A DNA stretch of 43,404 nucleotides from Bacillota bacterium (GTDB taxonomy: Bacteria > Bacillota > SHA-98 > Ch115 > JABLXJ01): the NCBI GenBank assembly GCA_012839815.1, contig DUMQ01000037.1:1-43404 (forward strand). The letters are read 5' to 3'. How positions within the stretch are numbered: position 1 is the first letter of the stretch; every line of letters starts with the position of its first letter. The notes beneath the pieces were generated by a model. It saw only the letters and a list, made by a program, of their open reading frames with translations, was not told where the DNA came from and did no database searches. This document shows positions 6,000 to 33,099 of this stretch, piece after piece. The translations under genes were made by a program, and so were the position numbers.

Positions 6000-6032
6000 G
6001 ATAGATACGCGGGCGCTCAAATCCCGGCAGGT

Positions 6033-6903: not shown

Positions 6904-7031
6904 AGATATCAGGGTGATAGCTCAGGCATCAGGGTGCCGGAAGGTCAGCAGGAATTGGCAGCCCGGCGTGGAATATGTCACTTGTTGCATTTGTATTGCC
7001 CGGCGCCGGTGCCGCGAGGGGGTGGTTGGTA

Positions 7032-10466: not shown

Positions 10467-10524
10467 TTAAGGTATAATATATGATGAAAGCCAGAAATGC
10501 CACAGAGGAGGCGTCAGGCTCGTA

Positions 10525-10725: not shown

Positions 10726-10740
10726 GGGTGGCGGTGAGGG

Positions 10741-12607: not shown

Positions 12608-12673
12608 CTGGTTTGACATGACCGGTTGGGCATGATGAATCGACGAATTACTTCTTACTTGGTGCACCGGTAA

Positions 12674-13693
<1,020 letters not shown>

Positions 13694-13719
13694 ATACAGC
13701 ATGAGTAATGTAGGTCTTC

Positions 13720-13745
13720 TCGCCCGGCGGGCGCGGTCTTTATAT
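13720..13745. terminator. Weak hairpin between convergent pfkA and ZIP genes
   Basis: CGCCCGGCGGGCG can fold as a short GC-rich stem and is followed by GGTCTTTATAT. It is the only terminator-like element between the two convergent genes. Confidence 0.4.
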
Positions 13746-13756
13746 CGCTAGTGGAA

Positions 13757-14494: not shown

Positions 14495-14715
14495 ATGTTG
14501 TCGTCTCCCTTCCTGACTAATTTTATGCTCACACAAAGTTTTGAGAATTAAAAAGCAGGAATCTGGCGATCATTGCAGAATAGAACCGCGAAAGAGGCAA
14601 ATGCTAGGGGCAGGTAAATGCTACAGGCAGATGCTGAACCAGGGTCCGGACAGGATCTGGGTGGCAGAGCTCAGATACGATTCGGATCCAGACCAACCTA
14701 AGGAGGGTATAAACT

Positions 14716-15636: not shown

Positions 15637-15697
15637 TACAAGGAGAATAGTGATGCAGGAGAATAAGAGTCAAGAACAGGGGTAAGGAGTGATGTCT

Positions 15698-16738
15698 ATG
15701 GCAGAAATTAAGAGGATAGGGGTGCTTACAGGAGGTGGGGATTGCCCGGGTCTCAACCCTGCGATAAGAGGGGTTGTGATGCGGGCGCTCGATTACAACC
15801 TGGAGGTCATGGGGATACGCGATGGATGGGCCGGCCTGATTAAAGGCGATATGGCGCCCATCGGACTGGCTGATGTGGACACCATCATATCGGTTGGCGG
15901 GACGATACTGGGGACTTCCCGGACCAACCCCTTCAAAAAGGAAGAGGATGTCCAGAAGGTTCTCGATAACATAAAGAAATTTAACCTCGACGCCATTATC
16001 GGGATCGGCGGCGATGATACCCTAGGCGTCGCCAATAAGCTGAGCAAGCGGGGCGCGCCTGCGGTAGGCGTCCCCAAGACCATGGACAACGACGTCTCAG
16101 GTACGGAATACTGCATCGGTTTTGATACAGCCGTAAGTGTTGCTGTAGACGCCTTGGAGCGCCTGCGGGATACTGCGCGGTCGCATCACCGCATAATGGT
16201 GCTGGAGGTCATGGGGCGAGACGCAGGCTGGGTGGCTCTCATGACAGGCCTGGCGGGTGGCGCAGATTGGATCCTCATTCCCGAGGTGCCGGTCGATTTT
16301 GACGAGATGTGCAAGCACCTGATGGATGTCCGCGCGCGCGGCAGGTCATACGGGCTGGTGGTCGTATCCGAGGGCGTAAAGCTGCCGCACCTCGATGAGA
16401 ATGCCGGCGGCGAGGTGGATGCGTTTGGTCATGTCAGACTCGGGCTCCGTGGCGTTGGCCAGGCGGTCGGCGACGAGATCGAGAAAAGGACGGGAGTCCA
16501 GACGCGGGTCGCCGCTATAGGGCATATCCAAAGGGGTGGATCCCCGACGGTTTCAGACAGGTACTATCCGACCAGGCTGGGCATGGCTGCGGTGGACCTG
16601 GTCATGAAGGGCGAGTTCGGGAAGATGCCGGCCGTCGTGGGGAACAAGATCGTTACCGTTGACCTTGACGTAGCCGTCGGCAAGACCAAGACCGTACCCA
16701 TAGAGCTCTGGAACGAGGTAAAAGCTCTCTTCAAATAG
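15698..16738 (+). CDS. Phosphofructokinase with pyrophosphate-type signature
   Basis: This 346-residue member of the phosphofructokinase family carries GGDDT (Asp107) where ATP enzymes have Gly104, and PKTMDND (Lys127) where they have Gly124. In this family the Asp plus Lys pair blocks the ATP alpha-phosphate and marks PPi-dependent enzymes, which run reversibly. Catalytic Asp130, M-G-R-D-A-G-W and Q-R-G-G-S-P-T are kept. The start is ATG 15698, with AAGGAG 8 bp upstream; an earlier GTG (15689) and ATG (15692) lie on or too near that site. It pairs with fba. Having both PFK types within 3 kb suggests separate glycolytic and reversible/gluconeogenic use. Confidence 0.9.
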   Translation: MAEIKRIGVLTGGGDCPGLNPAIRGVVMRALDYNLEVMGIRDGWAGLIKGDMAPIGLADVDTIISVGGTILGTSRTNPFKKEEDVQKVLDNIKKFNLDAIIGIGGDDTLGVANKLSKRGAPAVGVPKTMDNDVSGTEYCIGFDTAVSVAVDALERLRDTARSHHRIMVLEVMGRDAGWVALMTGLAGGADWILIPEVPVDFDEMCKHLMDVRARGRSYGLVVVSEGVKLPHLDENAGGEVDAFGHVRLGLRGVGQAVGDEIEKRTGVQTRVAAIGHIQRGGSPTVSDRYYPTRLGMAAVDLVMKGEFGKMPAVVGNKIVTVDLDVAVGKTKTVPIELWNEVKALFK

Positions 16739-16787
16739 GAGAGGGAGCTTTGTAAAGGGGCTGTTCGGGCGGAGCGGGACAGATATG

Positions 16788-16835
16788 GCCCGGCGGGATC
16801 GATTTGTTCGATCCTTCGCCGGGCTATATTTCTTT
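16788..16835 (+). terminator. Rho-independent-type terminator after the PPi-type phosphofructokinase
   Basis: GCCCGGCG at 16788-16795 pairs with CGCCGGGC at 16817-16824, with an inner ATCGA/TTCGAT stem, followed by TATATTTCTTT. This separates the glycolytic genes from the redox island. Confidence 0.8.
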
Positions 16836-16967
16836 ATGCGGGCGAGTCTTGGCTTCGGAGCTTATGCGGCCCATTGTTTGGTATAAACTATTTCGGAAAA
16901 GCAGGAGTTTTTTGCACCTAATGCGAATAGATAAAAATTGAGGCGTCTTTCGAGGAGGGAAACCCCG

Positions 16968-19325
16968 ATGGAGGGTTCGGGAATCGCCGTGATAGGCGGT
17001 GGGCCCGCCGGGATGTCGGCGGCTGTAGCTTTGGCCAATAACGGGTTAAATGTTTATCTTGTGGAGAAAGAGCCTGTACTGGGCGGGAAGGCTGCGTATT
17101 ATGGTTGCAAGGCGACGGATAAGTGCAACAAGTGTAATGTATGTTTGGTGGCGGATAAGAAGCGCCAGGTGGCTTCCCATCAGAATATAAAGGTGCTAAC
17201 CGGGTGCAGCGTCGAGAGGTCTTCAGGGGAGTTCGGTGATTACAAACTACGCCTGTCCAACGGCGAGATCCTGGAGGTTAGGGCCATCGTCATCGCCACA
17301 GGCTTTGATGTGTTTGATGCAAGGCTGCGACCGCACCTCGGCTATGGGCGCCACGAGAGAGTGGTCTCCGCGTTCGAACTCGAGAGGGCGCTACGGGGGG
17401 GCCGAACGCTGGCCGAATACTTGGGCGGGGTCGCGCCCCGTTCGATAGCCTTCATCCAGTGCGTGGGGTCGCGCGACGTCCGGAGCGAGCATGATTATTG
17501 CTCCCGGGTATGCTGTATGTATTCCCTCCGGCTCGCCAAGGTGATACGTGAGCAACTCCCGGATGCAGAGATAACCGTATTTTACATGGATTTTCAGGGC
17601 GGTGGCAAGGCCCCGCGAGCTTTCAGGGAGTATTGTGAGACGACCGGAAACGTGCGCATGATCAGGAGCATGCCCGGGGAAGTGAGGGTGCTCGAGGGGC
17701 TGGCGAGCGAGGATGGTGCGGACGATCGCCCTCACCAACTCGAGGTCAGGTTTGAGGACCCCGATACCGGGGATGTCCGCAAGGCGGGGTTTGATCTTGT
17801 TGTGCTGGCTGTAGGCAGCACCCCGGGCAGCGATACAACCAGGCTCAGAGAGGTATTTGGTGTGGGCGCTGGCCGCGACGGCTTCTTTGATTCCCCGACA
17901 GGGGTACCCGGTATATTTGCGGCTGGTGCGTGCCGCGGGCCGATGGATATCGCCGAAGCGATGAGGGATGGCGAGGGGGTAGCAACTGAGATTTTGAATA
18001 CCCTGGCGCGGGGAAACATGTGGGCACTCTCGGGTTCGCCTGTGCGGGTCCAGAGCCGCCCTCCGGGCCGGGATGATGGGCGCCCGGGTGACCATGTCCT
18101 CGTCGTGGGCGGCGGTCTCGCGGGGATGGTTGCGGCAAAGACCCTTGCAGACTTAGGCGTGACTGTCACGATCGTGGAGCGCGACGCGAGCCTTGGCGGG
18201 AGGGCCTACCTTTCGGAGAGACCGGATGTATCGGCCCTTCTTGAAAAGGTAATGGAAGATGAGCTGATCAGCATCAAGACATCGTCACGTATTGCGAGCC
18301 TGCGCGGCATGGCGGGCGGTTTCGAGGTGATGTTATCGTCCCATCTTGGCGGCGGTCCCCCGGGTACAATCCGCGCTGGCGCTATTATCATATCCATCGG
18401 CCATAGGCTTGAACTCCCTGCTGCCGCGGTGGGGGCGCGGCTCCCGGCTGATGCCGGCATCCTCACCCTTTCGGAGTTCCGGAGAGGCAGCATATTCAAG
18501 GAGCCAGCCGGTCGGAGGGTTGTTTTCTGGATCCCTGTAATGGCTGGCAACAATGGTCCGGCATTCAGGCTGACCTTGCAAACGATTATCCCGGTTTTGG
18601 ACCGCGGTGGAGAGGTTGTAGTATTGTGTGATGATGTCAAAGTGGCGGGGGGCGGCATGAGTGCCCTATACCGCAAGGCTCGCGACAGGGGAGCCATCTT
18701 CATAAGATGCGGGTCGAGCGCCCCCGGCGTGGAAAGGGCGAGTGAGGCGGGCCGTTCGGGTGGCAGGTTAACCGTCACCGCCCGGGACGGCTCGCTTGCG
18801 GGGCTTGCGGGATTCGCCGGGCCTGACGGGCCGACCGGACCTGCCGGGTACCTGAGGATCGTGTGCGACTGCTTTGTGATCGCCGAGGAGATGGTGCCCG
18901 ATATCGATGCCCCCCAACTCGCTTCAATACTAAATATTCACCCGGGACCGCTTGGATTTTTCCAGGAGGACAATGTCCACCTGCTTCCCTCTGATTCCAG
19001 CAGGCGCGGGATATATTTTGCCGGGACGTGCCGCGGGCCTCAGGATGACGACGAGGTTGTACTCGACGCAAGAGTTGCGGCGCTCCGGGCATATCATCTG
19101 GTGTCCGGGAGTCATTGCCCTGTTGATTGGGCAACAGCCAGCGTAGACCCTGGCAAATGCGCGTTGTGCCTTACGTGTTTGAGGTCATGCCCGCACGCGG
19201 CCATTGAGGTGGATCACGAGAACCGGGCTGCGAGGGTGACACCTATAGCTTGCCAGGGGTGCGGCGTTTGCGCGAGCGAATGCCCGGCCAGGGCCATAAC
19301 CCTGAAACACCTGGAAGTTTCATAG
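16968..19325 (+). CDS. HdrA-like flavoprotein with two FAD modules (HdrA1)
   Basis: The protein is 785 residues. The first FAD Rossmann motif is GGGPAG at 10-15. A Cys cluster follows (Cys47, 53, 56, 59; KCNKCNVC), then the HdrA hallmark FIQCVGSRD at 162-170 with YCSRVCC at 177-183. A second FAD motif is GGGLAG at 381-386. The C-terminal end holds a two-[4Fe-4S] ferredoxin domain (CALCLTC and CQGCGVC). HdrA proteins bifurcate electrons at FAD, coupling a favourable transfer to ferredoxin reduction. The order hdrA-mvhD-metV-metF matches the Moorella-type methylene-THF reductase operon, so this is probably the HdrA that feeds MetFV. ATG 16968 has GGAGGG 8 bp upstream; an earlier in-frame start at 16938 is less likely. 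Confidence 0.88.
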   Translation: MEGSGIAVIGGGPAGMSAAVALANNGLNVYLVEKEPVLGGKAAYYGCKATDKCNKCNVCLVADKKRQVASHQNIKVLTGCSVERSSGEFGDYKLRLSNGEILEVRAIVIATGFDVFDARLRPHLGYGRHERVVSAFELERALRGGRTLAEYLGGVAPRSIAFIQCVGSRDVRSEHDYCSRVCCMYSLRLAKVIREQLPDAEITVFYMDFQGGGKAPRAFREYCETTGNVRMIRSMPGEVRVLEGLASEDGADDRPHQLEVRFEDPDTGDVRKAGFDLVVLAVGSTPGSDTTRLREVFGVGAGRDGFFDSPTGVPGIFAAGACRGPMDIAEAMRDGEGVATEILNTLARGNMWALSGSPVRVQSRPPGRDDGRPGDHVLVVGGGLAGMVAAKTLADLGVTVTIVERDASLGGRAYLSERPDVSALLEKVMEDELISIKTSSRIASLRGMAGGFEVMLSSHLGGGPPGTIRAGAIIISIGHRLELPAAAVGARLPADAGILTLSEFRRGSIFKEPAGRRVVFWIPVMAGNNGPAFRLTLQTIIPVLDRGGEVVVLCDDVKVAGGGMSALYRKARDRGAIFIRCGSSAPGVERASEAGRSGGRLTVTARDGSLAGLAGFAGPDGPTGPAGYLRIVCDCFVIAEEMVPDIDAPQLASILNIHPGPLGFFQEDNVHLLPSDSSRRGIYFAGTCRGPQDDDEVVLDARVAALRAYHLVSGSHCPVDWATASVDPGKCALCLTCLRSCPHAAIEVDHENRAARVTPIACQGCGVCASECPARAITLKHLEVS

Positions 19326-19371: not shown

Positions 19372-19848
19372 ATGCCTAAAATCGTCGCTTTCGCTTGCGA
19401 GCATTCTGCATATGAGGCTGCGACTGCGGCGCTCGAGCGGAAAACGGGAACAGCCGTGTCGGGCGAAAATCCGAGGTTTCCGATTGTTGAAGTTGAAATC
19501 CTAAAGGTCCCTTGTACCGGCAGAGTCGAGGTTATTGATATTCTCAAGGCTCTCGAGGGTGGGGCGGGCATCGTCGTCCTGCTTGGTTGCTTTGAAGAGG
19601 CGTGCCACTATCTCACCGGGAACGTGCGAGCGAAGAAGCGCGTGGGGTATGTTCGCAGGATCATCCAGGATATCGGACTTGAGGAGAACAGGGTCCAATT
19701 CTTTTCCCTCGCCCCTGACATGGACGCGCGTTTCTCCGGGATCATTGAGGAGCTTTCGAAGCAGGTAGTAAACATGGGGCCTGGTCCCGTCACAAGGATA
19801 AGGGATCAGACGACAAAAGAGCAGGCGCAGGCAGCGCAAGCTAGGTGA
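19372..19848 (+). CDS. Divergent MvhD-type electron-transfer subunit (MvhD1)
   Basis: MvhD proteins carry a [2Fe-2S] cluster and pass electrons to or from HdrA. The canonical form has C-x-x-C, then C-S-G-R, then G-C-H-P-G-D-C. In this 158-residue protein the first pair is C-E-H-S (Cys9, with Ser12 replacing Cys), the second is PCTGRV (Cys48), and the third is GCFEEACHYLTGN (Cys73, Cys78). One usual cysteine is therefore missing, and the G-A-D segment is also lost. The cluster may be altered or bound with a non-Cys ligand. It overlaps the start region of metV and follows hdrA1, so it probably links that HdrA to MetV. Confidence 0.85.
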   Translation: MPKIVAFACEHSAYEAATAALERKTGTAVSGENPRFPIVEVEILKVPCTGRVEVIDILKALEGGAGIVVLLGCFEEACHYLTGNVRAKKRVGYVRRIIQDIGLEENRVQFFSLAPDMDARFSGIIEELSKQVVNMGPGPVTRIRDQTTKEQAQAAQAR

Positions 19849-19859
19849 GGGGTGCGGAT

Positions 19860-20537
19860 ATGATAGTCGCTGAGCAGAAGCCGGTAGCCGAGATCCTGAG
19901 GATGATAGAGGGTTATCGCAAGATCCTTGTGGTAGGCTGTGGGACATGCGTCACGGTCTGCATGGCCGGGGGCGAGAAGGAGGCTGGTATCCTGGCATCC
20001 CTGATCAGGATGGCGTGGGCCCGAGAGGGCAGGTTGGGTCCCCTGATCGATGTGAGCGAGACCACGGTTGAGCGGCAGTGTGAGTGGGAGTTTCTCCAGG
20101 AGATCTCCGAGAAGGTTGCGGCATCCGATGCTGTGCTGAGCATGGGATGCGGCGCCGGGGTCCAGGCGATGGCCAGGATGTTTGAAGGCAAGGTGATACT
20201 CCCCGCCCTTAACACGAAGTTCATAGGGATGCCCGAGAGGCAGGGACTCTGGACGGAGCTTTGCGCGGGGTGCGGCGACTGCGTGCTCGATCGAACGGGA
20301 GGGATTTGCCCCATAGCCCGGTGTTCCAAGAGCCTTTTGAACGGCCCGTGCGGGGGGTCGCAGAACGGCAAGTGTGAGGTCAGCAAGGATATCGACTGCG
20401 CCTGGCAGTTGATATTCGACAGGATGAAGTCCCTGGGGAGGTTGGAGGCGCTCGGGGCGATGCTCCCACCCAAGGACTGGTCCAAAAACCGCGATGGCGG
20501 GCCGAGGAAGGTTGTCAGGGAGGATATGTTGCTATGA
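19860..20537 (+). CDS. metV: MetV, zinc/iron-sulfur partner of methylene-THF reductase
   Basis: This is a MetV-family protein (methylene-THF reductase C-terminal-like, about 225 residues). Visible cysteine-rich motifs are G-C-G-T-C-V-T-V-C near the N terminus, C-A-G-C-G-D-C-V-L-D in the middle, and N-G-P-C-G-G-S with a further Cys nearby. In Moorella MetV forms a complex with MetF and links it to HdrABC-MvhD. ATG 19860 has GAGGGG about 8 bp upstream; the GTG at 19845, overlapping the mvhD1 stop, is an alternative. It overlaps metF by 4 bp (ATGA), showing tight coupling. Confidence 0.9.
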   Translation: MIVAEQKPVAEILRMIEGYRKILVVGCGTCVTVCMAGGEKEAGILASLIRMAWAREGRLGPLIDVSETTVERQCEWEFLQEISEKVAASDAVLSMGCGAGVQAMARMFEGKVILPALNTKFIGMPERQGLWTELCAGCGDCVLDRTGGICPIARCSKSLLNGPCGGSQNGKCEVSKDIDCAWQLIFDRMKSLGRLEALGAMLPPKDWSKNRDGGPRKVVREDMLL

Positions 20538-21451
20538 AATCAGGAAGCAACCTCGAAAAGGTCTTGGTGCACGGTGACTTCGCCGTCACGGGCGAGCTTG
20601 GCCCCCCGCAGAGCAATGACAGGGAGGTCATAGTTAAGAAGGCGAAGGCATACAAGGGGTATGTCGATGCAGTAAACATAACGGACAACCAGACTGCCAT
20701 AGTGAGGATGTCGAGCATCGCCGCGTGCGCGATTGTTGCGGGGCTCGGCCTGGATCCTGTGATGCAGATGACTTGCCGCGACAGAAACAGGATCGCCATG
20801 CAGAGCGATATCCTCGGCGCATCTGCTCTCGGCATCAAGAATATATTGTGTCTGACGGGTGACCATCAAAGCTTTGGGAATCACCCAACATCGAAGAACG
20901 TCTACGATATCGACTCGATCCAACTGATCAGCATGGTCAAGGGCATGCGGGACGATAAGAAGTTTTTGAACGGCGAGGAGATGAAGTCCGAGCCGAGGAT
21001 GTTCATAGGGGCCGCGGCCAATCCCTTCGCCGACCCATTTGAATACCGGGTTGTGCGGCTCGCAAAGAAGGTCGCGGCCGGCGCTGATTTCATCCAGACG
21101 CAGGCGGTCTTCGATGTCCCGAGGTTCAAAAGGTGGATGGAGATGGTGCGGGATCGCGGCCTCCACGAGAGGGTTTATATCCTGGCCGGGGTTATACCTG
21201 TGAAGTCGGCCGGCGCCATGAGGTACATGAAAAACGATGTTCCCGGTATGAGCGTGCCGGATGAGCTGGTGAGGCGCATGGAGCAGGCATCTGATCCCAA
21301 GGAGGAGGGCATCAGGATATGCGTGGAGACGATTCTGCAGTTGCGGGAGATCGAGGGCGTGAGTGGCATCCATCTTATGCCCATAATGTGGGAGAGCGTT
21401 GCGCCCATTATCGTCGAGCGGGCAGGCCTCTTGCCGAGGCCGGAATATTAG
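20534..21451 (+). CDS. metF: 5,10-methylenetetrahydrofolate reductase
   Basis: This FAD-dependent TIM-barrel enzyme reduces methylene-THF to methyl-THF, the last reductive step of the Wood-Ljungdahl methyl branch. The 305-residue protein has the conserved E-L-G-P-P near residue 22 (Glu for folate), D-A-V-N-I-T-D-N near 46, C-L-T-G-D-H near 106 and F-I-Q-T-Q-A-V-F-D near 187. Lacking an NAD(P)H-specific partner domain, enzymes of this type rely on MetV and Hdr-like subunits for electrons. It starts on the ATGA overlap with metV. TATTAGCT is tandemly duplicated across the TAG stop. Confidence 0.95.
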   Translation: MKSGSNLEKVLVHGDFAVTGELGPPQSNDREVIVKKAKAYKGYVDAVNITDNQTAIVRMSSIAACAIVAGLGLDPVMQMTCRDRNRIAMQSDILGASALGIKNILCLTGDHQSFGNHPTSKNVYDIDSIQLISMVKGMRDDKKFLNGEEMKSEPRMFIGAAANPFADPFEYRVVRLAKKVAAGADFIQTQAVFDVPRFKRWMEMVRDRGLHERVYILAGVIPVKSAGAMRYMKNDVPGMSVPDELVRRMEQASDPKEEGIRICVETILQLREIEGVSGIHLMPIMWESVAPIIVERAGLLPRPEY

Positions 21452-21490: not shown

Positions 21491-21910
21491 ATGGAGGTTC
21501 AGGGATACTCGCTGCCGGATGAGCTTTATTACGACACAAACCACAGCTGGGGCCGGGTCGAGGGCGATATCATGGTCGTCGGGATCAATGATTTCGCGCA
21601 GAAACTTGCTGGGGAATTCGTTTCGGTGGACCTGCCCTCAAAGGGCAAGAAGGTGCAACAGGGTAAACCCCTCGCCTCTGTCGAATCGGGCAAATGGGTC
21701 GGAAGGGTCTATGCCCCTGTGAGCGGCGAAGTGGTCGATGTCAATGAAGCCCTTGAAGACGACCCGACTACATTGAATAGCGACCCCTACGGGGAAGGCT
21801 GGGTCGCCAAGATCAGGTTCGAAAACTCGGCGGAGCTGGAGAACCTGCTCCAGGGGGAGAAGGCCGCCAGGTGGCTCGAGGAGGAAATCGCCAAGCACGT
21901 AAAGAAATGA
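21491..21910 (+). CDS. GcvH-like lipoyl carrier protein inside the Hdr cluster
   Basis: The protein is 139 residues with the barrel-sandwich fold of glycine cleavage H protein: H-S-W near 18-20, V-G-I-N-D-F-A near 30-36, V-D-L-P near 46-49, and lipoyl Lys68 in S-V-E-S-G-K-W-V-G-R. In ordinary GcvH the lysine lies in ESVKA, so the site is recognisable but unusual. H proteins carry methylamine on a lipoyl arm between the P and T proteins and so supply methylene-THF. Related lipoate-binding proteins also accompany sulfur-oxidising Hdr complexes. No glycine cleavage P, T or L genes lie nearby, so a redox or carrier role tied to MetF/Hdr is possible. The ATG follows AGGAGGG. Confidence 0.88.
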   Translation: MEVQGYSLPDELYYDTNHSWGRVEGDIMVVGINDFAQKLAGEFVSVDLPSKGKKVQQGKPLASVESGKWVGRVYAPVSGEVVDVNEALEDDPTTLNSDPYGEGWVAKIRFENSAELENLLQGEKAARWLEEEIAKHVKK

Positions 21911-21949: not shown

Positions 21950-22477
21950 ATGGATATTGTAATCACAGATCTTGACCCCAGGTTTAAGCATGAGGTCGCG
22001 AAGGAGGAGGGCGGCGAGCGCGTAAAGTATTGCTTCCAGTGCGGCACCTGTACATCAGGTTGCCCCGTGAGCGAGATAGATAGCAAGTATAACCCCAGGT
22101 GCATCATCCGCATGGTCATACTGGGGATGAGGGAACAGGTTCTGAGGAGCGATTTCATATGGCTTTGCTCCACGTGCTATACCTGCTATGAGCGCTGCCC
22201 GCAGGATGTCAGGATAACCGAGGTCATGAACGCATTGAAGAACATGGCCGTTCGGGAGGGATACATCCATCCTGCCTTCAGAGCTCAGGCGGAGCTCATC
22301 GGCTCGCACGGCAGGCTGTATGAGATCGATGAATTTACTGAAGAAAAGCGGGAGGAACTCGGGCTCGCCCGGCTCTCCGGAGACATCGCCGAGGTCGCGG
22401 AGATCTTCAAGATCACGGGGCTTGCTGAGCTATTGAGCGAAGCATCCCAGGAGCCGGTCAGGACGGCGAGCGCGTGA
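21950..22477 (+). CDS. hdrC: Heterodisulfide reductase-like subunit C
   Basis: This 175-residue protein has two [4Fe-4S] motifs: Cys28-x2-31-x2-34-x3-38 and Cys73-x2-76-x2-79-x3-83, each followed by Pro. This is the HdrC pattern, which relays electrons between HdrA and HdrB. It lacks membrane segments, so the complex is cytoplasmic. It is followed 30 bp later by hdrB, and the order hdrC-hdrB-hdrA is standard. A tandem TGACGT duplication lies on its TGA stop. Confidence 0.93.
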   Translation: MDIVITDLDPRFKHEVAKEEGGERVKYCFQCGTCTSGCPVSEIDSKYNPRCIIRMVILGMREQVLRSDFIWLCSTCYTCYERCPQDVRITEVMNALKNMAVREGYIHPAFRAQAELIGSHGRLYEIDEFTEEKREELGLARLSGDIAEVAEIFKITGLAELLSEASQEPVRTASA

Positions 22478-22507: not shown

Positions 22508-23386
22508 ATGGCAGTGAAGTATGCTATATTTTTAGGTTGCACGGTGCCCGTGAGGGCCATGAGCTACGAGGTCTCGGCCCGCAAGGTCGCAGGTGGCCTG
22601 GGGATCGAACTGGTTGATATACCGGAATTTAGCTGCTGCGGCTATCCAGTGAAGTCAGTTCACCAGGATACGACGCTTCTCATGGCTGCGCGAAACCTGA
22701 GCCTTGCGGAGGAGCGCGGCCTCGATATCACCACCCTTTGCAGCGCCTGCACCTCCGTCCTGACCGAGGCGGCCAGGAGGCTTAGCTCCGACGGGGAGCT
22801 TCTCGGCAAGGTTAACGAGCAGCTCAAGAAGCTTGGAAGGAAGTATTCGGGCCGGACCAGGGTCAAGCACTTCGCACGCGTTATTTATGAGGATGTGGGG
22901 CTTGATAAGGTGAGGGAGAGCGTGAAACGCGATATCAGCTCCCTGCGGATCGCCTCGCACTACGGGTGCCATTACCTCAAGCCCTCTGAAATCTACGACC
23001 GTTTCGACGACCCCGAGGTGCCGGCCAGCCTCGACGCGCTGGTGGAGGCCGCGGGAGCTGTGCCGGTCGACTATGTAACAAAGAAGGAATGCTGCGGTGG
23101 TGCAATTCTCGGGGTCGATGAAAACATAGCCCTTAGTATGACCAAGCAGAAGCTGGATGATATCTCGAAGCGCGGCGCCGACGCCATAAATCTCGTCTGT
23201 CCATTCTGCAACATCATGTATGGGGCAAACCAGAGGAAGGTCCAGTCGAAATATGGCGTCAAATACGACCTGCCCATCCTCTATTACCCGCAGGTTCTCG
23301 GGCTTGCGATGGGGATGGAGCCGGAGGAGCTCGCGCTCAACATGAACCCCATAAAGCCCAAGTCGCTCCTGGCGAAGCTTGGCTGA
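22508..23386 (+). CDS. hdrB: Heterodisulfide reductase-like subunit B
   Basis: This 292-residue protein has two CCG domains. The first includes Cys11, Cys43-Cys44 (CCGYPVKS) and Cys78/Cys81 (LCSAC). The second includes Cys154 (HYGCHYLKP), Cys195-Cys196 (ECCGG) and Cys231/Cys234 (CPFC). In HdrB these hold non-cubane [4Fe-4S] clusters that reduce a disulfide. The organism is not expected to have CoM-S-S-CoB, so the acceptor here is unknown; options are a lipoyl arm (the GcvH-like protein), a small-molecule disulfide, or MetF. The conserved cysteines are complete. Confidence 0.93.
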   Translation: MAVKYAIFLGCTVPVRAMSYEVSARKVAGGLGIELVDIPEFSCCGYPVKSVHQDTTLLMAARNLSLAEERGLDITTLCSACTSVLTEAARRLSSDGELLGKVNEQLKKLGRKYSGRTRVKHFARVIYEDVGLDKVRESVKRDISSLRIASHYGCHYLKPSEIYDRFDDPEVPASLDALVEAAGAVPVDYVTKKECCGGAILGVDENIALSMTKQKLDDISKRGADAINLVCPFCNIMYGANQRKVQSKYGVKYDLPILYYPQVLGLAMGMEPEELALNMNPIKPKSLLAKLG

Positions 23387-25462: not shown

Positions 25463-26269
25463 ATGGAGAGTGAAACGTTCGAACCGAAAATTGTGGCGTT
25501 TCTGTGCAACTGGTGCTCGTATGCCGGTGCTGACCTCGCAGGCACGTCTAGGCTCTACTATCCAGCCAACGTACGCGCCATCAGGGTGATGTGCTCGGGC
25601 AGGGTCGACCCTGCGATGATGATCAGGCCTTTCATAGACGGTGCCGACGGGGTTCTCGTGCTCGGATGCCATTTCGGGGATTGCCATTACCTCACGGGTA
25701 ATTACCAGACTGACCAGCGTGTGAGAATCGTATGGGAGGTGCTCCGCCAGGTCGGCGTAGATCCCGGGCGGCTGCATCTTGACTGGGTTTCGGCGGCCGA
25801 GGGCGCCAGATTTGCCGAGATCGTTGAGGAATTTTGCAACAGGATGAGGCACATGGGGCCGCTGCAGGCTTCGCTTCCGTCCGGGCCATTGCCTTATGAC
25901 CTGCCCCTGGCCCTGGCGATAGCGGCTGAAATCGTGGAGGGCGAGAGATTCAGGTGGCTCTTGGGAAGGCTGCGCGAGCTCCGCGAGCAGGGAAGCGTAT
26001 ATGGTGAGAGGATCGATGCGGCCAGGCTTGAGCAGCTGGTGCGGGATGTCATAGCCGAGGAGTACGTGCGGGCAGGCGTGCAGGTCCTTGCGGCGCGCGA
26101 ACCCCTATCTGTTAAGGATATGGCATCGAAGCTCGGGCTGGCCGCCAGGGATGTATTAAAGCAGGTTGCGTACTTGAAAAAACGCGGGGTCCTCGATATT
26201 TACGATGTCCGGCAACAATCGCCAAGGTACCAGTCAACTACGCGTATAGGGGTAGATGACCTTGGATAA
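25463..26269 (+). CDS. MvhD-type subunit with a C-terminal winged-helix-like extension (MvhD2)
   Basis: Residues 1-135 are a normal MvhD: C15-N-W-C18, C44-S-G-R and G-C69-H-F-G-D-C74-H-Y-L-T-G-N, enough for the [2Fe-2S] cluster. Residues 140-268 are an added part. A helical stretch is followed, at about 213-250, by E-P-L-S-V-K-D-M-A-S-K-L-G-L with L-K-K-R-G-V-L-D-I-Y-D, which looks like a winged-helix domain. Such a domain could bind DNA, a partner protein or HdrA. The gene starts immediately after the hdrA2 stop and overlaps hdrA3 by 14 bp, so it is co-translated with the complex. Confidence 0.85.
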   Translation: MESETFEPKIVAFLCNWCSYAGADLAGTSRLYYPANVRAIRVMCSGRVDPAMMIRPFIDGADGVLVLGCHFGDCHYLTGNYQTDQRVRIVWEVLRQVGVDPGRLHLDWVSAAEGARFAEIVEEFCNRMRHMGPLQASLPSGPLPYDLPLALAIAAEIVEGERFRWLLGRLRELREQGSVYGERIDAARLEQLVRDVIAEEYVRAGVQVLAAREPLSVKDMASKLGLAARDVLKQVAYLKKRGVLDIYDVRQQSPRYQSTTRIGVDDLG

Positions 26270-29200
26270 CAGGGATAATATGGATAATGATGTTGGAGCC
26301 AAGAGTGTCGGGGCTGTGTTGGTCGTAGGTGGCGGGATCGGGGGTATGCAGGCGGCCCTTGATCTCGCAAATTCGGGCTTTAAGGTGTATATGGTGGAGG
26401 CAAAACCAGCCATCGGGGGTGCCATGGCGCAGCTCGATAAGACCTTCCCGACTAACGATTGCTCCATGTGCATAATGTCGCCCAAGCTTGTTGAGTGCGG
26501 CAGGCACTTGAATATTGAGGTGATCCCCAACAGCGAGGTGACGGGGCTCGATGGCAGCCCGGGGGACTTCACGGTGACGGTGAAGACGAGGGCGAGGTAT
26601 ATCGACCCCCACAGGTGTACGGGATGCGGGCTGTGCGCCGAGCATTGCCCTGTCAGCGCGGCGCGGGATGCCTTCAATGCGGGGCTCTCGAGCCGGCCGT
26701 CGGTGTACATCGACTACCCGCAGGCCGTGCCGCTCGCCTATACCATTGACAGGGAAACATGCATAGGCTGCGGGCTGTGCGAGAATATCTGCATGGCCGG
26801 CGCCGTGAGATACGATGATGCCGCGAGCACGCGGGAACTCAATGTCGGTGCCATCATCCTGGCGCTGGGCTTTGAGCCGTATGATCCCGGGCAGATGGCC
26901 GAGTACGGCTACGGGCGCTATCCAAATGTGGTTACCAGCGTGGAGTTTGAACGCATTCTGAGCGCCTCGGGGCCGTTCGAGGGGAGGGTCCTCCGGCCCT
27001 CCGACGGCGACATACCCCGGAAGATCGCATTCATCCAGTGCGTGGGCTCGAGGGACAGGTCCTGCGGCAATGAATACTGTTCATCCGTATGCTGCATGTA
27101 TGCGAGCAAGGAGGCCGTGATCGCAAAGGAACACGCCCCCGGTGTCGAGCCTACCATATTCTATATGGATATGCGCTCTTACGGGAAGGGTTTCGATAGC
27201 TACATCGAAAGGGCCAAGTCCGAATACGGCGTCAGGTATATAAGGACGCGCGTGGCCGATATCTCGGAGGTTCCCGAGACGAATAACCTCATCGTTTCGT
27301 ATGAGGACGAAGTTGGAAGGGTTGTAACGGAAGAATTTGACCTGGTCGTGCTGAGCGTGGGCCTGGAGCCCCCGAAGAGCGCGGCAGGCCTGGCGCGGGC
27401 CCTGGGCATAGAGCTCGATGAGTACGGCTTTGCCAGGACCGGGACCTTCGACCCTGTGGAGACTTCGCGCCCCGGGGTTTTCGTGTGCGGCGCAATGCAG
27501 GGGCCCAAGGATATACCGGAGACGGTGACGCAGGCGAGCGGGGCGGCAGGCGCGGCTGCGGCGCTCCTGGCGAGCGCTCGCGGGAGCCTGGTCCGGGAGA
27601 AGACTTACCCTCCGGAGAAGGATCTCAGGGGCAAGGGCCCCCGGATCGGGGTTTTCGTATGCCACTGTGGCATCAACATCGGCGGCGTAGTCGACGTCCC
27701 GGCCGTTGTCGAGTACGCCAGGACGCTACCCCATGTGGTCTACGCCGAGCGAAACCTTTATACCTGCTCCCAGGATACGCAGAAGCGAATCCAGGAGAAG
27801 ATCCAGGAGCACGGTCTCACAAGGGTTGTTGTGGCATCGTGCACACCACGGACGCACGAGCCCCTTTTCCAGGAGACCATCCGCGAGGCCGGGCTGAATC
27901 ATTACCTCTTCGCCATGGCGAACATTCGCGACCAGTGTTCATGGGTACACATGCACGAGCCGGAGCTCGCCACGGAAAAGGCCAAGGACCTTGTCCGGAT
28001 GGCCGTCGCAAGGGCGGCGCTCCTGGAGCCCCTGGAGCGGCTGCCAATCCCGGTGAAGCATTCGGCCCTTATCATAGGCGGCGGCCTTGCGGGCATGACG
28101 GCTGCGCTCGACGTGGCGCGGCAGGGCTTTGAGGTGCACCTGGTGGAGAGGGAGGGCGAGCTGGGCGGCCATCTCAATAGAATATATTTCACGCTCAAGG
28201 GTGAGGATGTGCAGGAGCGCCTCAGGGATCTCATTCGCAGGATCGACGGCGAGCCGCTCATCCACGTTTACCCGGGGTGTGTCGTGACCGAGATAGCGGG
28301 ATACGTGGGCAATTTCAAGAGCAAGATCGCGCCGGTCGGTGGCGGCATCGAGGCCGAGGTCGAGCACGGCGTCGTCATAGTGGCAACCGGGGCGGGCGAA
28401 TTCAAGCCTGACAAGTACCTTTACGGCGAGGATCCAAGGGTCATTACCCAGTCCGAGCTCGAGGAGCTGCTCGCGACGGGAAAGATTCAACCAGGTAGCC
28501 GCGCGGCGAGCACCGGTACCGGCCGCACCTTTGTGATGATCCAGTGCGTGGGCTCGCGTGAGGGCGAGCGAAACTACTGCAGCAGGATTTGCTGTAGCGA
28601 GGCGGTGAAAAACGCCCTCAGGTTAAAGGCTGCGGACCCTGAGGCCAACATATATGTCCTCTACCGGGATATCAGGACCTATGGGGAAAGGGAGGTATAC
28701 TTCCAGCGGGCTCGAGCGGCCGGTGTGGTCTTCATACGCTACCCCGAGGATGAGCCCCCGGTGGTCGAGCCGGTAGCCGGGCCTGAGGTCGAGCAAGGGG
28801 GCAAAGGGAAGCCTGTAGGTGAGCTCCGGGTGGTGGTGCGCGATACGCTGCTCGGGAGCAAGGTCGCCATACCGGCCGATATGGTGGTGCTCGCTGCCGC
28901 TATCGTGCCTAATGATTCCAACCGCGAGCTGGCCCAGATGCTGAAGGTTCCCCTCGATGATAACGGCTTCTTCCTTGAGGCTCATATGAAGCTGCGGCCC
29001 GTGGATTTTGCCACGGAGGGGGTATTCCTGGCGGGACTGGCGCATGCGCCGAAGTCAATAGATGAGACGGTGGCGCAGGCTCATGCGGCGGCCGCGCGGG
29101 CATGCACCGTCCTGAGCCTGGAGGAGATCAGGAGTGATGGCATAAAGTCCGAGGTCAACAAGGCGCGGTGCAGCGGGTGCGGGATGTGCGTCGATGTTTG

Positions 29201-29363
29201 CCAGTACAAGGCGATCGAGCTTGATTTCAAGGAACGCGTTGCTAAAATCAATGCCGCCCTGTGCAAGGGCTGCGGCGCGTGCGCCGCGACATGCCGGTGC
29301 GGGGCGATAACCCTGAAGGGTTTCACGGATGAGGAGATACTGGCGGAGGTGAACGCGATATGA
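26256..29363 (+). CDS. Double-module HdrA-like protein, 1035 residues (HdrA3)
   Basis: This reads as two HdrA units in one chain. Half one has FAD motif GGGIGG at 25-30, Cys70/72, two inserted [4Fe-4S] motifs (Cys121-131 and Cys169-179) and FIQCVGSRD near 259. Half two begins at G-P-R-I-G-V-F-V-C-H-C-G (461-472), a second HdrA N-terminal domain, then GGGLAG at 608-613, another IQCVGSR, and a C-terminal ferredoxin domain (CSGCGMC, CKGCGAC). Canonical HdrA is about 650 residues. The halves carry different surrounding domains, so this is not a simple tandem copy. It is coupled to mvhD2 upstream and mvhD3 downstream (4-bp overlap), suggesting an electron hub between the Flox part and HdrABC. Confidence 0.9.
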   Translation: MTLDNRDNMDNDVGAKSVGAVLVVGGGIGGMQAALDLANSGFKVYMVEAKPAIGGAMAQLDKTFPTNDCSMCIMSPKLVECGRHLNIEVIPNSEVTGLDGSPGDFTVTVKTRARYIDPHRCTGCGLCAEHCPVSAARDAFNAGLSSRPSVYIDYPQAVPLAYTIDRETCIGCGLCENICMAGAVRYDDAASTRELNVGAIILALGFEPYDPGQMAEYGYGRYPNVVTSVEFERILSASGPFEGRVLRPSDGDIPRKIAFIQCVGSRDRSCGNEYCSSVCCMYASKEAVIAKEHAPGVEPTIFYMDMRSYGKGFDSYIERAKSEYGVRYIRTRVADISEVPETNNLIVSYEDEVGRVVTEEFDLVVLSVGLEPPKSAAGLARALGIELDEYGFARTGTFDPVETSRPGVFVCGAMQGPKDIPETVTQASGAAGAAAALLASARGSLVREKTYPPEKDLRGKGPRIGVFVCHCGINIGGVVDVPAVVEYARTLPHVVYAERNLYTCSQDTQKRIQEKIQEHGLTRVVVASCTPRTHEPLFQETIREAGLNHYLFAMANIRDQCSWVHMHEPELATEKAKDLVRMAVARAALLEPLERLPIPVKHSALIIGGGLAGMTAALDVARQGFEVHLVEREGELGGHLNRIYFTLKGEDVQERLRDLIRRIDGEPLIHVYPGCVVTEIAGYVGNFKSKIAPVGGGIEAEVEHGVVIVATGAGEFKPDKYLYGEDPRVITQSELEELLATGKIQPGSRAASTGTGRTFVMIQCVGSREGERNYCSRICCSEAVKNALRLKAADPEANIYVLYRDIRTYGEREVYFQRARAAGVVFIRYPEDEPPVVEPVAGPEVEQGGKGKPVGELRVVVRDTLLGSKVAIPADMVVLAAAIVPNDSNRELAQMLKVPLDDNGFFLEAHMKLRPVDFATEGVFLAGLAHAPKSIDETVAQAHAAAARACTVLSLEEIRSDGIKSEVNKARCSGCGMCVDVCQYKAIELDFKERVAKINAALCKGCGACAATCRCGAITLKGFTDEEILAEVNAI

Positions 29364-29824
29364 AAATGAACCAGGAGGGCGAGTGGGAGCCGAAGATCGT
29401 CGCATTCCTCTGCAACTGGTGCTCCTACGCTGGCGCGGACCTCGCTGGGACCAGCAGGATCCAGTATCCGCCCAACGTCAGGGTCATCCGGGTGCCGTGC
29501 TCGGGGCGGGTCGACCCGCTCCTCATCCTGAAATGCCTGCAGCGTGGCGCCGACGGCGTGCTAGTATCGGGGTGCCACCCCGGCGACTGCCATTATATAG
29601 CAGGCAATTACCTCGCCAGGCGCAAATTCGCCATGTTAAAGAGGCTTATTGAATATCTCGGCGTGGAGGAGGGAAGGGTTCAGTTTTCGTGGGTCTCCGC
29701 CGCCGAGGGCGAGAAATTTGCGGATGTCATCAAGACTGTGACGAGGCGCGTCAGGGAGCTGGGCCCGGCCCGTAAATTGGTCAAGGTGAGGGAGATGCAG
29801 GGAGGGGCGGGCGCGAGTTTATGA
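29360..29824 (+). CDS. MvhD/FloxD-type electron-transfer subunit (MvhD3)
   Basis: The 154-residue protein has the full MvhD set: C18-N-W-C21-S-Y-A-G-A-D, C47-S-G-R-V-D-P and G-C72-H-P-G-D-C77-H-Y. It should carry a [2Fe-2S] cluster and link the NAD(P)H-oxidising Flox subunits to an HdrA flavin. Its start overlaps the hdrA3 stop by 4 bp, and its stop overlaps floxC by 4 bp, so it is embedded in one translational chain with both partners. In Desulfovibrio-type clusters the equivalent gene is called floxD. Confidence 0.92.
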   Translation: MKMNQEGEWEPKIVAFLCNWCSYAGADLAGTSRIQYPPNVRVIRVPCSGRVDPLLILKCLQRGADGVLVSGCHPGDCHYIAGNYLARRKFAMLKRLIEYLGVEEGRVQFSWVSAAEGEKFADVIKTVTRRVRELGPARKLVKVREMQGGAGASL

Positions 29825-30828
29825 GCGATTTACTTGGCGTGAGCGGCATAATGAGCGGTATAGGCGGTATGAATAACTGGAAGAGAGATAGCGACGTGAA
29901 CGGTGCTGCTGCCAACGAGGCCGCGGACAGAGTTGCACAGGATATCAGACGCATAGCCCGGAAGCTCCTCAGCGACGGGGAGGTTGACGTATTCATCGGT
30001 TACGGGCAGGGGACCCTGCCTTCAAGGGTCACGCCTGTATTTATAACCCGGCCCGAGGACGCCGATGCCCTCATCTGGGACGCGCGCTGCGAGAATGACC
30101 TCGTCGTTTACCTGCCGGGGATCGAGGGCAAGGCCGGCGTAGTCGTAAAGGGCTGCGATGGTAGGGCCCTGGCTCGTCTTCTGGCTGAGAAGCAGGTCGA
30201 GCGCGACCGGCTCAAGATCGTTGCCGTCGAGTGTGCGGGCGTGATCGACCGGAAGAGCGTGAAGAGGGACGGGGGCAATAGAGTCCATTTGCACCCGTCG
30301 TGCCAGGTGTGCGAGGAGCGTACGGCCCCGGTTTACGATTTCCTGGCAGGGGGCGCCACGGGCCCCGTCGTACCGGGCGGCCCAGGCGATAAGAGCGGGA
30401 GCCGCGATCCCTTCGGCGAGATAAGGGAGTTTGAGGCTAGAGCGAGCGAGGAACGCTGGAATTATTTTTCTCAGGAATTTGACCGCTGCATCCTGTGCTA
30501 TGCATGCCGGCAGGCGTGCCCGCTCTGTTATTGCCCGGAATGCTTCGCGGACAGGGCGACTCCCAAGTGGATAGGCAAGGACCGGGCGCTCTCGGACAAG
30601 ATGGTATTCCACCTGGGGCGCGCCATTCACCTGGCGGGGAGGTGCATCGATTGCGGGGCGTGCGTGCGCGCTTGCCCCATGGGTATCGACCTGAGGAAGC
30701 TCACGAGGAAGATGGAGAAAGACGCCAGGGAGCTTTTTGGTTACGAGGCTGGCAAGGCCGCGGCCGCAGGCGCGCTGCCGCTCTTCGCTTCATTTACGAG
30801 GGAGGATCCTGACGATTTCATCTTATAA
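29821..30828 (+). CDS. FloxC-like iron-sulfur subunit
   Basis: The 335-residue protein has an N-terminal alpha/beta part with a V-K-G-C-D-G-R motif, as in FrhB/formate-dehydrogenase-beta-like proteins. A dicluster ferredoxin end follows: C-I-L-C-Y-A-C-R-Q-A-C-P with extra Cys in L-C-Y-C-P-E-C, then C-I-D-C-G-A-C-V-R-A-C-P. There is no membrane segment. By position between mvhD3 and the FloxB/FloxA-like genes it corresponds to FloxC of Hdr-Flox complexes. The name is by context and motif, not by a search. The first 15 residues are poor in conserved features, so the true start could be ATG 29851 or 29869. Confidence 0.8.
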   Translation: MSDLLGVSGIMSGIGGMNNWKRDSDVNGAAANEAADRVAQDIRRIARKLLSDGEVDVFIGYGQGTLPSRVTPVFITRPEDADALIWDARCENDLVVYLPGIEGKAGVVVKGCDGRALARLLAEKQVERDRLKIVAVECAGVIDRKSVKRDGGNRVHLHPSCQVCEERTAPVYDFLAGGATGPVVPGGPGDKSGSRDPFGEIREFEARASEERWNYFSQEFDRCILCYACRQACPLCYCPECFADRATPKWIGKDRALSDKMVFHLGRAIHLAGRCIDCGACVRACPMGIDLRKLTRKMEKDARELFGYEAGKAAAAGALPLFASFTREDPDDFIL

Positions 30829-30970: not shown

Positions 30971-32146
30971 ATGCATGGTACCGCCGGTCTGGATCGTACG
31001 GGTGGTCCCGGGGTCGCAGGCGTTAGCGTTATGAGCAAGGAGGGGCTGGCCGGTTTCCTGAACGGCCTCATCGCCAGGTTCCGGGTGTTTGCCCCGGTTC
31101 AGGAGGCGGGGACGACGAGGTTTGCCCCGGTATCATCAGCGGGCGAGGTAATGATGCCCACCACCGTCACCTCGCGGCCGCTCAAGGAGCTGTTCCTGCC
31201 CCCAAGTGAGACGCTTTTGGAATTTGAGGTCGAGACGTCAGGCGGCATGGTTGGTGAAGTCAAGGTCGAGCCTGCCGAGCCTGGCGTGGGCGACATGCCC
31301 CGGGTCGTCTTCGGGGCGCGGCCCTGCGATGCGAGGAGCCTCCTATTGCTAGATAAGGTTTTTGATTCAACTGATTACAAGGACGGCCATTACATCGCCA
31401 GGCGGAGAGGGACAGCGATAATCTCTGTCGCCTGCAGCGAACCCGCGGAGATATGCTTTTGCACCTCCACGGGCGGAGGCCCGTTTGATGAAGCGGGATC
31501 CGATGTTATCCTCGAAGACGTGGGAGATGTTTACCTTATAAAGGTCATTACGGAGCGAGGGGCAGGGCTCCTCGCCGGGCTTGAGGGCGTCGTGCCGGGA
31601 TTCCGGCGACTTTCTGAACAGGCGGAAGGAGATGCGCTACCGGGGCAGCTGCTACCGCTGCTACCGGAGCAGCTGCTGGCCGCGGAGAGGAATGCGAAGG
31701 AGCGGGCCGAGGCCGTGATCCCTGCGCTCGTCCCCGCGCGAGGGATCCATGAGAAGCTCAAGGGGATGTTTGAGCATGAGTGCTGGGGCGAGCTTTACCG
31801 CAAGTGCCTGGGGTGCGCTGCGTGCGCATACCTCTGCCCGACCTGCCACTGTTTTGATATAGCTGATGAGGCCGTCGATAACAAAGGCCGGAGAGTGCGA
31901 TGCTGGGACGCGTGCATGTTTCCCATGTTTACGCTCCACGCCTCGGGTCACAACCCGCGGCCGGGCCGGAAGGAGCGTTTCCGGCAGAGGGTTATGCACA
32001 AATTCAGCTATTTCATGGAGAATAACGGCGACATTGCCTGCGTCGGCTGCGGGCGCTGTATAGAGAATTGCCCGGTGAATATGGATATTCGCAGCGTTCT
32101 GGCCTCGCTGGACGCCGTATCCGCCGCATCCGCGGGTACGGTTTGA
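30971..32146 (+). CDS. FloxB-like iron-sulfur subunit (sulfhydrogenase beta/AsrA-like)
   Basis: The 391-residue protein has a middle segment V-F-G-A-R-P-C-D-A-R-S-L and a C-terminal dicluster ferredoxin: C-L-G-C-A-A-C-A-Y-L-C-P with C-H-C, then C-V-G-C-G-R-C-I-E-N-C-P. This is the architecture of HydB of sulfhydrogenases and AsrA of sulfite reductases, which pass electrons from an NAD(P)H-oxidising partner. No NiFe hydrogenase or sulfite reductase subunits are present, so the Flox role fits. ATG follows GAGAGGTG with an 8-bp gap. It is separated from floxC by 142 bp, the largest gap in the island. Confidence 0.85.
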   Translation: MHGTAGLDRTGGPGVAGVSVMSKEGLAGFLNGLIARFRVFAPVQEAGTTRFAPVSSAGEVMMPTTVTSRPLKELFLPPSETLLEFEVETSGGMVGEVKVEPAEPGVGDMPRVVFGARPCDARSLLLLDKVFDSTDYKDGHYIARRRGTAIISVACSEPAEICFCTSTGGGPFDEAGSDVILEDVGDVYLIKVITERGAGLLAGLEGVVPGFRRLSEQAEGDALPGQLLPLLPEQLLAAERNAKERAEAVIPALVPARGIHEKLKGMFEHECWGELYRKCLGCAACAYLCPTCHCFDIADEAVDNKGRRVRCWDACMFPMFTLHASGHNPRPGRKERFRQRVMHKFSYFMENNGDIACVGCGRCIENCPVNMDIRSVLASLDAVSAASAGTV

Positions 32147-32202: not shown

Positions 32203-33099
32203 GTGAGAGCTTTGCAGTATGCCGAGCAGACTCCAGGTCCAGCTCCAGATCCAGGTACGGTGCGGGATGTTTACCTGCCCCACATAGCGAGGATCAGGAA
32301 GATAACGCAGGAGACGGATTCGAGCGACGTTAAAACATTCGAGGTTGTATTCTTGGACGAAAACGCCTGGCAGGGTTTCAAATACGCCCCTGGCCAGTTC
32401 GCAGAGCTTTCGGTATTTGGGGTCGGCGAGGCCCCGATCTCCATCACCTCATCCCCGACTCAAGAGGGCTACCTTGAGTTCAGTGTAAAACGGATGGGCG
32501 CTGTGACGAGCGCCCTGCACTACCTTGAGGAGGGCGCGGTTATCGGGGTGCGCGGTCCCTATGGGAATACATTCCCCATTGATGACATGAGGGGGCGGGA
32601 CATAATATTCATAGGCGGGGGTATAGGCCTCGCTCCCCTGAGGTCGCTCATAAATTACATGCTCTCGTCGAAATACAGGGCGGATTTCGGCAGGATCGAC
32701 ATCATCTATGGCGCCAGGAGTCCGGGTGACCTGGTATTCAAATGGGAGCTTGAGAAATGGCAGCAGCGCCGCGACATGAGTCTGGTGGTCACAGTTGACA
32801 GGGGCGACGATACCTGGACGGGAAAGGTTGGCTTTGTGCCTGCCGTCCTCAAGGAGATTGCGCCGGCGCCCGGAGGCGCCGTGGCGGTTACGTGTGGTCC
32901 GCCAATCATGATCAAGTTTGTGATCCAAAACCTGCTCGAGCTCGGCTTTGCGCCCGAGCAGATTGTCACGACGCTGGAGATGAGGATGAAGTGCGGCATA
33001 GGCAAGTGCGGGCGCTGCAACATCGGTTCGAAATATGTGTGCAAAGACGGGCCGGTATTCACCTACGCCCAACTCAGGGAGATACCAAAGGAGTATTGA
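32203..33099 (+). CDS. FloxA-like FAD/NAD(P)-binding oxidoreductase (sulfhydrogenase gamma/AsrB-like)
   Basis: The 298-residue protein is of the ferredoxin-NADP reductase fold. FAD is bound by P-I-S-I-T-S-S-P near residue 82, NAD(P) by G-G-G-I-G-L-A-P-L-R near 142, and a C-terminal [2Fe-2S] site has C-G-I-G-K-C-G-R-C-N-I-G and a later Cys. It should oxidise NAD(P)H and pass electrons to the FloxB-like subunit. The start is uncertain: GTG 32203 sits close to GGGAAGG, while TTG 32212 has better spacing; conserved sequence begins later either way. It is the last gene of the island and is followed by a strong terminator. Confidence 0.9.
   Translation: MRALQYAEQTPGPAPDPGTVRDVYLPHIARIRKITQETDSSDVKTFEVVFLDENAWQGFKYAPGQFAELSVFGVGEAPISITSSPTQEGYLEFSVKRMGAVTSALHYLEEGAVIGVRGPYGNTFPIDDMRGRDIIFIGGGIGLAPLRSLINYMLSSKYRADFGRIDIIYGARSPGDLVFKWELEKWQQRRDMSLVVTVDRGDDTWTGKVGFVPAVLKEIAPAPGGAVAVTCGPPIMIKFVIQNLLELGFAPEQIVTTLEMRMKCGIGKCGRCNIGSKYVCKDGPVFTYAQLREIPKEY

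Follow-up and report, generated by a model that had tools for sequence, protein, structure and literature searches.

An LbpA-type lipoyl carrier protein encoded beside HdrCB in a Bacillota redox operon, a candidate disulfide partner of an Hdr-type electron-transfer complex

The DNA analysed here, a stretch of 43,404 nucleotides from a Bacillota genome (contig DUMQ01000037.1), hereafter called the window, encodes a lipoyl carrier protein which is real, conserved and of the LbpA type, belongs to an HdrABC complex and is prone to misnaming. It is not the housekeeping H protein of glycine cleavage. On the evidence laid out below, the protein probably cycles between dithiol and disulfide as a carrier that serves the noncubane clusters of HdrB within an Flx/MvhD-HdrABC complex, and it is a candidate for the carrier sought in many anaerobes, namely the disulfide partner of an Hdr-type electron-transfer complex. 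Direct support comes from the gene itself, its motif, its phylogenetic place, synteny, co-occurrence and the conserved ligands of HdrB and HdrA.

The lipoyl protein and its operon

The open reading frame starts with ATG, preceded by a GGAGGG ribosome-binding site, and is separated by 39 bp from metF on one side and by 39 bp from hdrC on the other, which confirms the position between metF and hdrCB given in the first-pass annotation. The genes of the operon follow one another in the order of Table 1, all on the plus strand, with gaps of at most 46 bp up to FlxC and of 142 and 56 bp thereafter. The redox operon is closely preceded by two phosphofructokinase-like genes and a fructose-bisphosphate aldolase gene (12701-13693 and 14716-16738); in most relatives the aldolase and one phosphofructokinase stay beside the operon.

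Table 1. Genes of the redox operon and their identification
Feature	Coordinates	Strand	Remarks
HdrA-like protein of MetVF block	16938..19325	+	aligned module has E but R in place of K
MvhD-like protein of MetVF block	19372..19848	+	PF02662
MetV	19845..20537	+	PF12225, 1.5e-37
MetF, methylene-THF reductase	20534..21451	+	PF02219, 1.8e-41
LbpA-type (KWVG) lipoyl carrier protein	21491..21910	+	139 aa, lipoyl lysine K68, no cysteine
HdrC-like 4Fe-4S protein	21950..22477	+	TIGR03290, 4.4e-39, below its cut-off
HdrB-like protein	22508..23386	+	two CCG domains, 10/10 cysteines of two noncubane clusters
HdrA, 684 aa	23408..25462	+	bifurcating-type flavin residues E385, K441
MvhD-like protein with C-terminal extension	25463..26269	+	profile search
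HdrA-like double-module protein	26256..29363	+	E/K pair in both modules
MvhD/FlxD-like protein	29360..29824	+	resembles the MvhD-like protein at 25463 in sequence
FlxC-like 4Fe-4S protein	29821..30828	+	Fer4 domains; named by position and domain content
FlxB-like 4Fe-4S protein	30971..32146	+	Fer4_22; named by position and domain content
FlxA-like FAD/NAD(P)-binding protein	32203..33099	+	NAD_binding_1, FAD_binding_6, DHODB_Fe-S_bind; name by domain fit

The protein consists of a single GcvH-like lipoyl domain with the conserved lysine (PF01597 GCV_H, E 5.7e-43), and it passes the curated NCBIfam equivalog model of GcvH, TIGR00527, with 124.7 bits against a cut-off of 115.85, so that automatic annotation would label the gene gcvH. 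The predicted structure has the H-protein fold, with modest confidence: its mean pLDDT is 73.9, and two out of five models were good. The closest solved structures in a fold search were all GcvH. Both the profile matches and the solved structures would also suit a housekeeping-type H protein, that is, a spare GcvH or a lipoyl relay merely placed in this operon, an explanation taken up with the phylogeny below. The same fold, with weak similarity (phmmer 3.9e-4, 22% identity in the fold search), is found in GcvH-L of SirTM operons (PDB 5a35). A macro-domain gene is present upstream of the operon in five of the 13 loci of class relatives (L037, L038, L039, L041 and L042); in view of the weak similarity to GcvH-L, a kinship with SirTM/GcvH-L was rejected and the macro-domain genes were treated as a coincidence.

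The lipoyl lysine lies within ESGKWVG, and the element E65-S66-G67-K68-W69-V70-G71-R72 is invariant in the clade of the window protein (11 sequences). The residue after the lipoyl lysine (K+1) was scored in an alignment of 139 H-type proteins, with the L101 rows left out. Among proteins encoded close to Hdr genes it was tryptophan in 35 of 38 (the exceptions being L082_12874, L082_12497 and L092_10853), and among those close to lipoate-assembly genes in 10/13. Proteins lacking a labelled neighbour had tryptophan in 7/31 cases (six from actinobacteria and one from an archaeon), and the 37 from gcv surroundings never had it; the value of 20/20 for proteins from the motif scan is largely due to the design of that scan. 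Clusters of the sulfur-oxidiser type with Hdr, TusA and LbpA (e.g. L110 and L120) bear ESGKWVGP. Thus the site, at first described as altered, does differ from that of GcvH, but it is no oddity and represents a family signature of Hdr-associated lipoyl proteins. Proteins with ESGKWVG can pass the curated model, and their annotation as GcvH should be read with caution.

H proteins of the genome and phylogenetic position

Three GCV_H proteins are encoded in the genome, which is 99.7% complete (2.80 Mb in 163 contigs). Neither gcvP nor gcvT was found in the window ORF lists examined, in line with the absence of glycine-cleavage partners remarked upon before, and both are located on contig C145 in an operon gcvT-gcvH-gcvPA-gcvPB with its own GcvH, so that the suggested search for a separate gcvH with gcvPT had a positive outcome. 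Downstream of gcvPB there are two radical SAM-like genes followed by a lipoate ligase gene; LplA (PF21948) and one radical SAM protein were confirmed by Pfam, the second radical SAM protein being assigned by similarity only. The third H protein adjoins a fused E1 and a thiolase. Its locus (L005, contig C55, 5269-9284) encodes a thiolase-like protein and an E1 with the alpha and beta parts fused; the H protein itself belongs to the GcvH clade and has the site DCMKTAS. Genes resembling corrinoid-type methyltransferases are close by, and an E2 was not noticed in L005.

Two H-protein trees were calculated (97 and 79 rows, 138 columns, without an outgroup root) after removal of near-identical rows, long branches and others. 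The relatives were the best 80 of 181 from a contig search, weaker ones being left out; the loci L056-L065 and L024/L025 were omitted because they duplicate L037-L048 and L054/L055, respectively. In both trees a branch with support 100/97 excluded the window protein from the GcvH clade, within which the other two H proteins of the genome fell. The window protein is therefore neither the only H protein of its genome nor a member of the housekeeping group. It was likewise excluded from the clade of sHdr LbpA proteins (17 rows, 100/99), and its join with other HdrCB-linked proteins was not firm (95/69); with only 138 columns and no outgroup root the deeper order of the trees is unsure. The comparison with the GcvH and LbpA families, recommended in the first-pass annotation, thus places the protein outside both, and it probably forms an LbpA-type group of its own beside GcvH and the LbpA proteins of sulfur oxidisers. 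It was not filed as LbpA proper because it lacks two defining features of that family, the cysteines and the place in the clade. The exclusion from the GcvH clade, the separate gcvTHP operon with its own GcvH, the lack of a K+1 tryptophan in gcv-context proteins and the perfect co-occurrence with HdrB in the class, described below, make a spare GcvH or an incidental lipoyl relay very improbable.

Association with HdrCB

The lipoyl gene was present in 14 of 17 genomes of the class, and in all 14 it was located directly upstream of hdrC-hdrB. An HdrB ortholog (68-100% identical) occurred in exactly the same 14 genomes and was not found in the three without the lipoyl gene (G002, G003 and G007). 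MetV-MetF preceded the lipoyl gene in six of the 14 (the window, G001, G006, G008, G009 and G014), and MetF was not found anywhere in the other eight (completeness 81-98%). Since HdrB always accompanies the lipoyl gene and MetF is missing in 8/14, it is HdrCB that the lipoyl gene belongs with, MetVF being variable. The earlier proposal of a link with LbpA and Hdr systems is borne out by synteny, motif and co-occurrence, but a specific tie to MetF is not supported, as the eight genomes keep the gene beside hdrCB without any MetF.

The same eight genomes argue against two further explanations. A C1 carrier, whose arm would bring an aminomethyl group from glycine cleavage to MetF, had been considered from the start; it has its position beside metF in its favour and nothing else, gcvT and gcvP adjoin the gene neither in the window nor in the ten class loci compared with gcv references (L056-L065), and this role is hardly credible. 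A redox partner dedicated to the MetVF methylene-THF reductase, as electron donor or acceptor and hence the missing second partner of Hdr-type MTHFR, would agree with the position right after metF in 6/14 class genomes and with a GcvH-MTHFR electron link modelled in PMC8760232 for a different (GcvH-type) protein. However, the authors of that model rated it highly unlikely, and in the available passages of PMC9430772 the clusters of S. ovata and M. thermoacetica are listed with six subunits and no lipoyl gene, so that such a dedicated role also appears quite unlikely.

AcsB was present in five of the six class genomes with MetVF at the lipoyl locus and in none of the eight lipoyl-gene genomes without it; the genome of the window has MetVF but gave no AcsB match, its congener G001 having AcsB. 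This pattern indicates that the lipoyl-Hdr unit is not tied to acetogenesis.

Comparison with known systems

The LbpA proteins of sHdr systems resemble the window protein in the H-protein fold, the lipoyl lysine in ES(G/A)KWVG, the gene position beside hdr and the separation from GcvH in trees (PMC6067878, PMC10332631). They have two conserved cysteines, with exceptions in some archaea, according to the same papers, whereas the window protein has no N- and C-terminal cysteines and carries R, not P, after KWVG. Its complex is of the HdrCBA-MvhD-Flx type rather than sHdr and is devoid of TusA/DsrE, and the lipoate genes of the genome lie inside the gcv operon, not beside the LbpA-type gene.

For LbpA of the sulfur-oxidising sHdr pathway a role as sulfur carrier has been proposed. 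The lipoyl arm could accordingly hold sulfane sulfur and hand it to the Hdr proteins, or act in reverse in sulfur reduction, and this would be consistent with the common motif family and with relatives in G028, G245 and G129 that adjoin TusA and DsrE; the latter tie a related module to TusA/DsrE, so that sulfur handling may be ancestral or a feature of sister lineages. Of the 14 class genomes that have the lipoyl gene, however, 12 gave no TusA, the genome of the window among them (G001 and G008 do have it), and DsrC (PF04358) was found in none of the 17. Taken together with the HdrCBA-MvhD type of the complex, the position outside the sHdr LbpA clade and the missing pair of cysteines typical of bacterial LbpA, this makes a sulfur carrier unlikely.

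GcvH of glycine cleavage and of acetogen Wood-Ljungdahl clusters (PMC4320612, PMC5039349) shares the fold, the Pfam family and a gcvH-like gene near metVF, but the acetogen-type protein of L055, whose gene adjoins acsB, carries ESGKVAS and groups with GcvH in the trees, and neither holds for the window protein. The Hdr-type (type IV) MTHFR of Moorella and Sporomusa (PMC9430772, PMC13040438) likewise unites MetV, MetF, HdrA, HdrB, HdrC and MvhD in one cluster, and the bifurcating-type HdrA residues E356/K409 have their equivalents in E385/K441 of the 684-aa HdrA; the window cluster differs in holding a lipoyl carrier gene and extra HdrA/MvhD/Flx-like genes.

The FlxABCD-HdrABC complex reportedly goes back to Ramos et al. 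2015. The window shares with it, as described in PMC6687939 and PMC4759654, HdrA, HdrB, HdrC, MvhD/FlxD and, as far as the domain content of the window genes goes, NADH-type Flx-like genes; the proposed disulfide partner of that system, DsrC, is missing from the 17 class genomes, and the window has a lipoyl gene beside HdrCB.

Proposed mechanism

The HdrB of the window retains all ten cysteines of its two noncubane clusters, as do 19/19 relatives compared, and it can be aligned end to end with methanogen HdrB. The lipoyl protein is presumably lipoylated, as suggested by LplA and the two radical SAM-like genes of the gcv operon. It would dock on HdrB, whose pair of noncubane [4Fe-4S] clusters would exchange electrons with the lipoyl disulfide/dithiol arm on K68, and HdrC, HdrA with its bifurcating flavin, MvhD and the FlxCBA-like module would connect this site to ferredoxin and NAD(H). 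The arm would fill the place taken by CoM-S-S-CoB in methanogens and, as proposed, by DsrC in sulfate reducers. Upstream, a MetVF block that brings an HdrA/MvhD of its own has been added in the window and in five relatives, and methylene-THF could there be another terminus.

The direction of electron flow was considered with the potentials of NADH and ferredoxin taken as general background. For lipoamide, potentials of -0.29 V (PMC6067878) and -325 mV (PMC8760232) are given, and with these NADH-driven reduction of ferredoxin with lipoyl as the sole acceptor would be uphill on standard potentials; either dihydrolipoyl is the donor, or the arm carries a higher-potential species. Dihydrolipoyl as donor is energetically easier than lipoyl as acceptor. 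It could act together with ferredoxin in a confurcation to NAD, or, where MetVF is present, in a bifurcation to ferredoxin and to methylene-THF as high-potential acceptor. The option with methylene-THF as acceptor comes near the scheme of PMC8760232, judged highly unlikely there for the authors' enzyme. In the sHdr system electrons may reduce the lipoyl arm of LbpA, E3 reoxidising it later (Cao et al., PMC6067878). As a counterpoint, the Hdr-type MTHFR of Sporomusa ovata did not respond to free lipoate or dihydrolipoate (PMC9430772); that experiment concerned a different protein and free lipoate, not a protein-bound arm.

A substitution of HdrB for lipoamide dehydrogenase (E3) came into consideration because the gcv operon and the acetoin-dehydrogenase-like operons of G391 and G084 show no E3. 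It was unsupported, as TIGR01350 was over its cut-off in 16/17 class genomes; the same was found in 10/10 other LbpA-type genomes checked. With E3 in these 16 genomes, dihydrolipoyl could be reoxidised without Hdr, which counts against a role of the lipoyl protein as carrier for HdrB. With the sulfur and E3-substitute roles both disfavoured, redox exchange between the lipoyl arm and HdrB remains.

Two published gaps are concerned: the disulfide reduced by Flx/HdrABC without DsrC, stated for a Syntrophomonas genome (PMC6687939), and the second electron partner of Hdr-type MTHFR (PMC13040438, PMC5039349). For both, the dedicated lipoyl protein with its gene next to that of HdrB offers a concrete candidate, open to testing, in a subset of anaerobes. 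If true, LbpA-type lipoyl chemistry would reach beyond sulfur oxidation. In the literature searched, which took in few subscription journals and no preprints, no description came up of a lipoyl protein of the KWVG type that accompanies a canonical HdrABC or MetVF cluster.

Wider occurrence

The lipoyl motif was searched as DNA in 398 genomes of the phylum, the reversed control giving 0 matches. The exact motif was found in 32 genomes, 13 in the class (G016 was not among the genomes sampled) and 19 outside; since 366/398 are without it, Hdr complexes elsewhere must have other partners. Sixteen of the 20 loci from the 19 outside genomes were near a CCG-domain/Hdr protein: HdrC-HdrB-HdrA-MvhD followed the lipoyl gene directly at four (G028, G129, G245 and G391), GlcD-GlcF-type genes were present at nine, and single loci had an HdrC-HdrB fusion with HdrA, MvhD, FlxC, FlxB and FlxA (G127), an sHdr-type set, or HdrB/HdrC within about 6 kb. 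A complete CCG partner was not in view at the other four (L050, L186, L195 and L200). Pfam matches confirmed the CCG domains in the L051 GlcF and in the L190 fusion, other GlcF calls being made by similarity. LplA, LipS1 and LipS2 were found at most of the 20 loci, often with LipT.

It is tempting to speculate, although as a whole this reading is rather doubtful, that anaerobes have in LbpA-type lipoyl proteins a general, protein-bound disulfide currency for their CCG-domain enzymes. Such proteins would be the thiol-disulfide carrier with which Flx/HdrABC complexes work in some DsrC-free organisms, would in the window lineage also be the second electron partner of Hdr-type methylene-THF reductase, and would in other Bacillota serve GlcD-GlcF-type 2-hydroxyacid oxidases and acetoin-dehydrogenase-like operons.

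Locus L190 (G127, 4615-17966) runs from GlcD-GlcF and a LUD-CCG protein into an LbpA-type protein, followed by the HdrC-HdrB fusion, HdrA, MvhD, FlxC, FlxB, FlxA, a GntR/FadR-like regulator and a lipoate ligase; this run is the module of the window in another family. In several Bacillota families, KWVG/KWAG lipoyl genes stand beside a GlcD-GlcF-type 2-hydroxyacid oxidase and lipoate-assembly genes (L187, L189, L192, L193, L194, L198, L051 and L052), and we know of no described function for these lipoyl genes. In L201 (G391, 755-14898) and L188 (G084, 8118-18729), operons of the acetoin/2-oxoacid dehydrogenase type (E1 alpha, E1 beta, AcoX-like, E2) are continued by genes for an AhpD-like CMD protein and a KWVG/KWAG lipoyl protein, after which there is HdrC-HdrB-HdrA-MvhD in L201 and GlcD-GlcF in L188; E3 is encoded elsewhere in both genomes. 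Finally, the archaeal loci L071 (Bathyarchaeota, 160-10438), with the order HdrA-MvhD-HdrC-HdrB, and L082 combine Hdr genes with KWVG lipoyl proteins, which suggests that the lipoyl-Hdr link is not confined to Bacillota.
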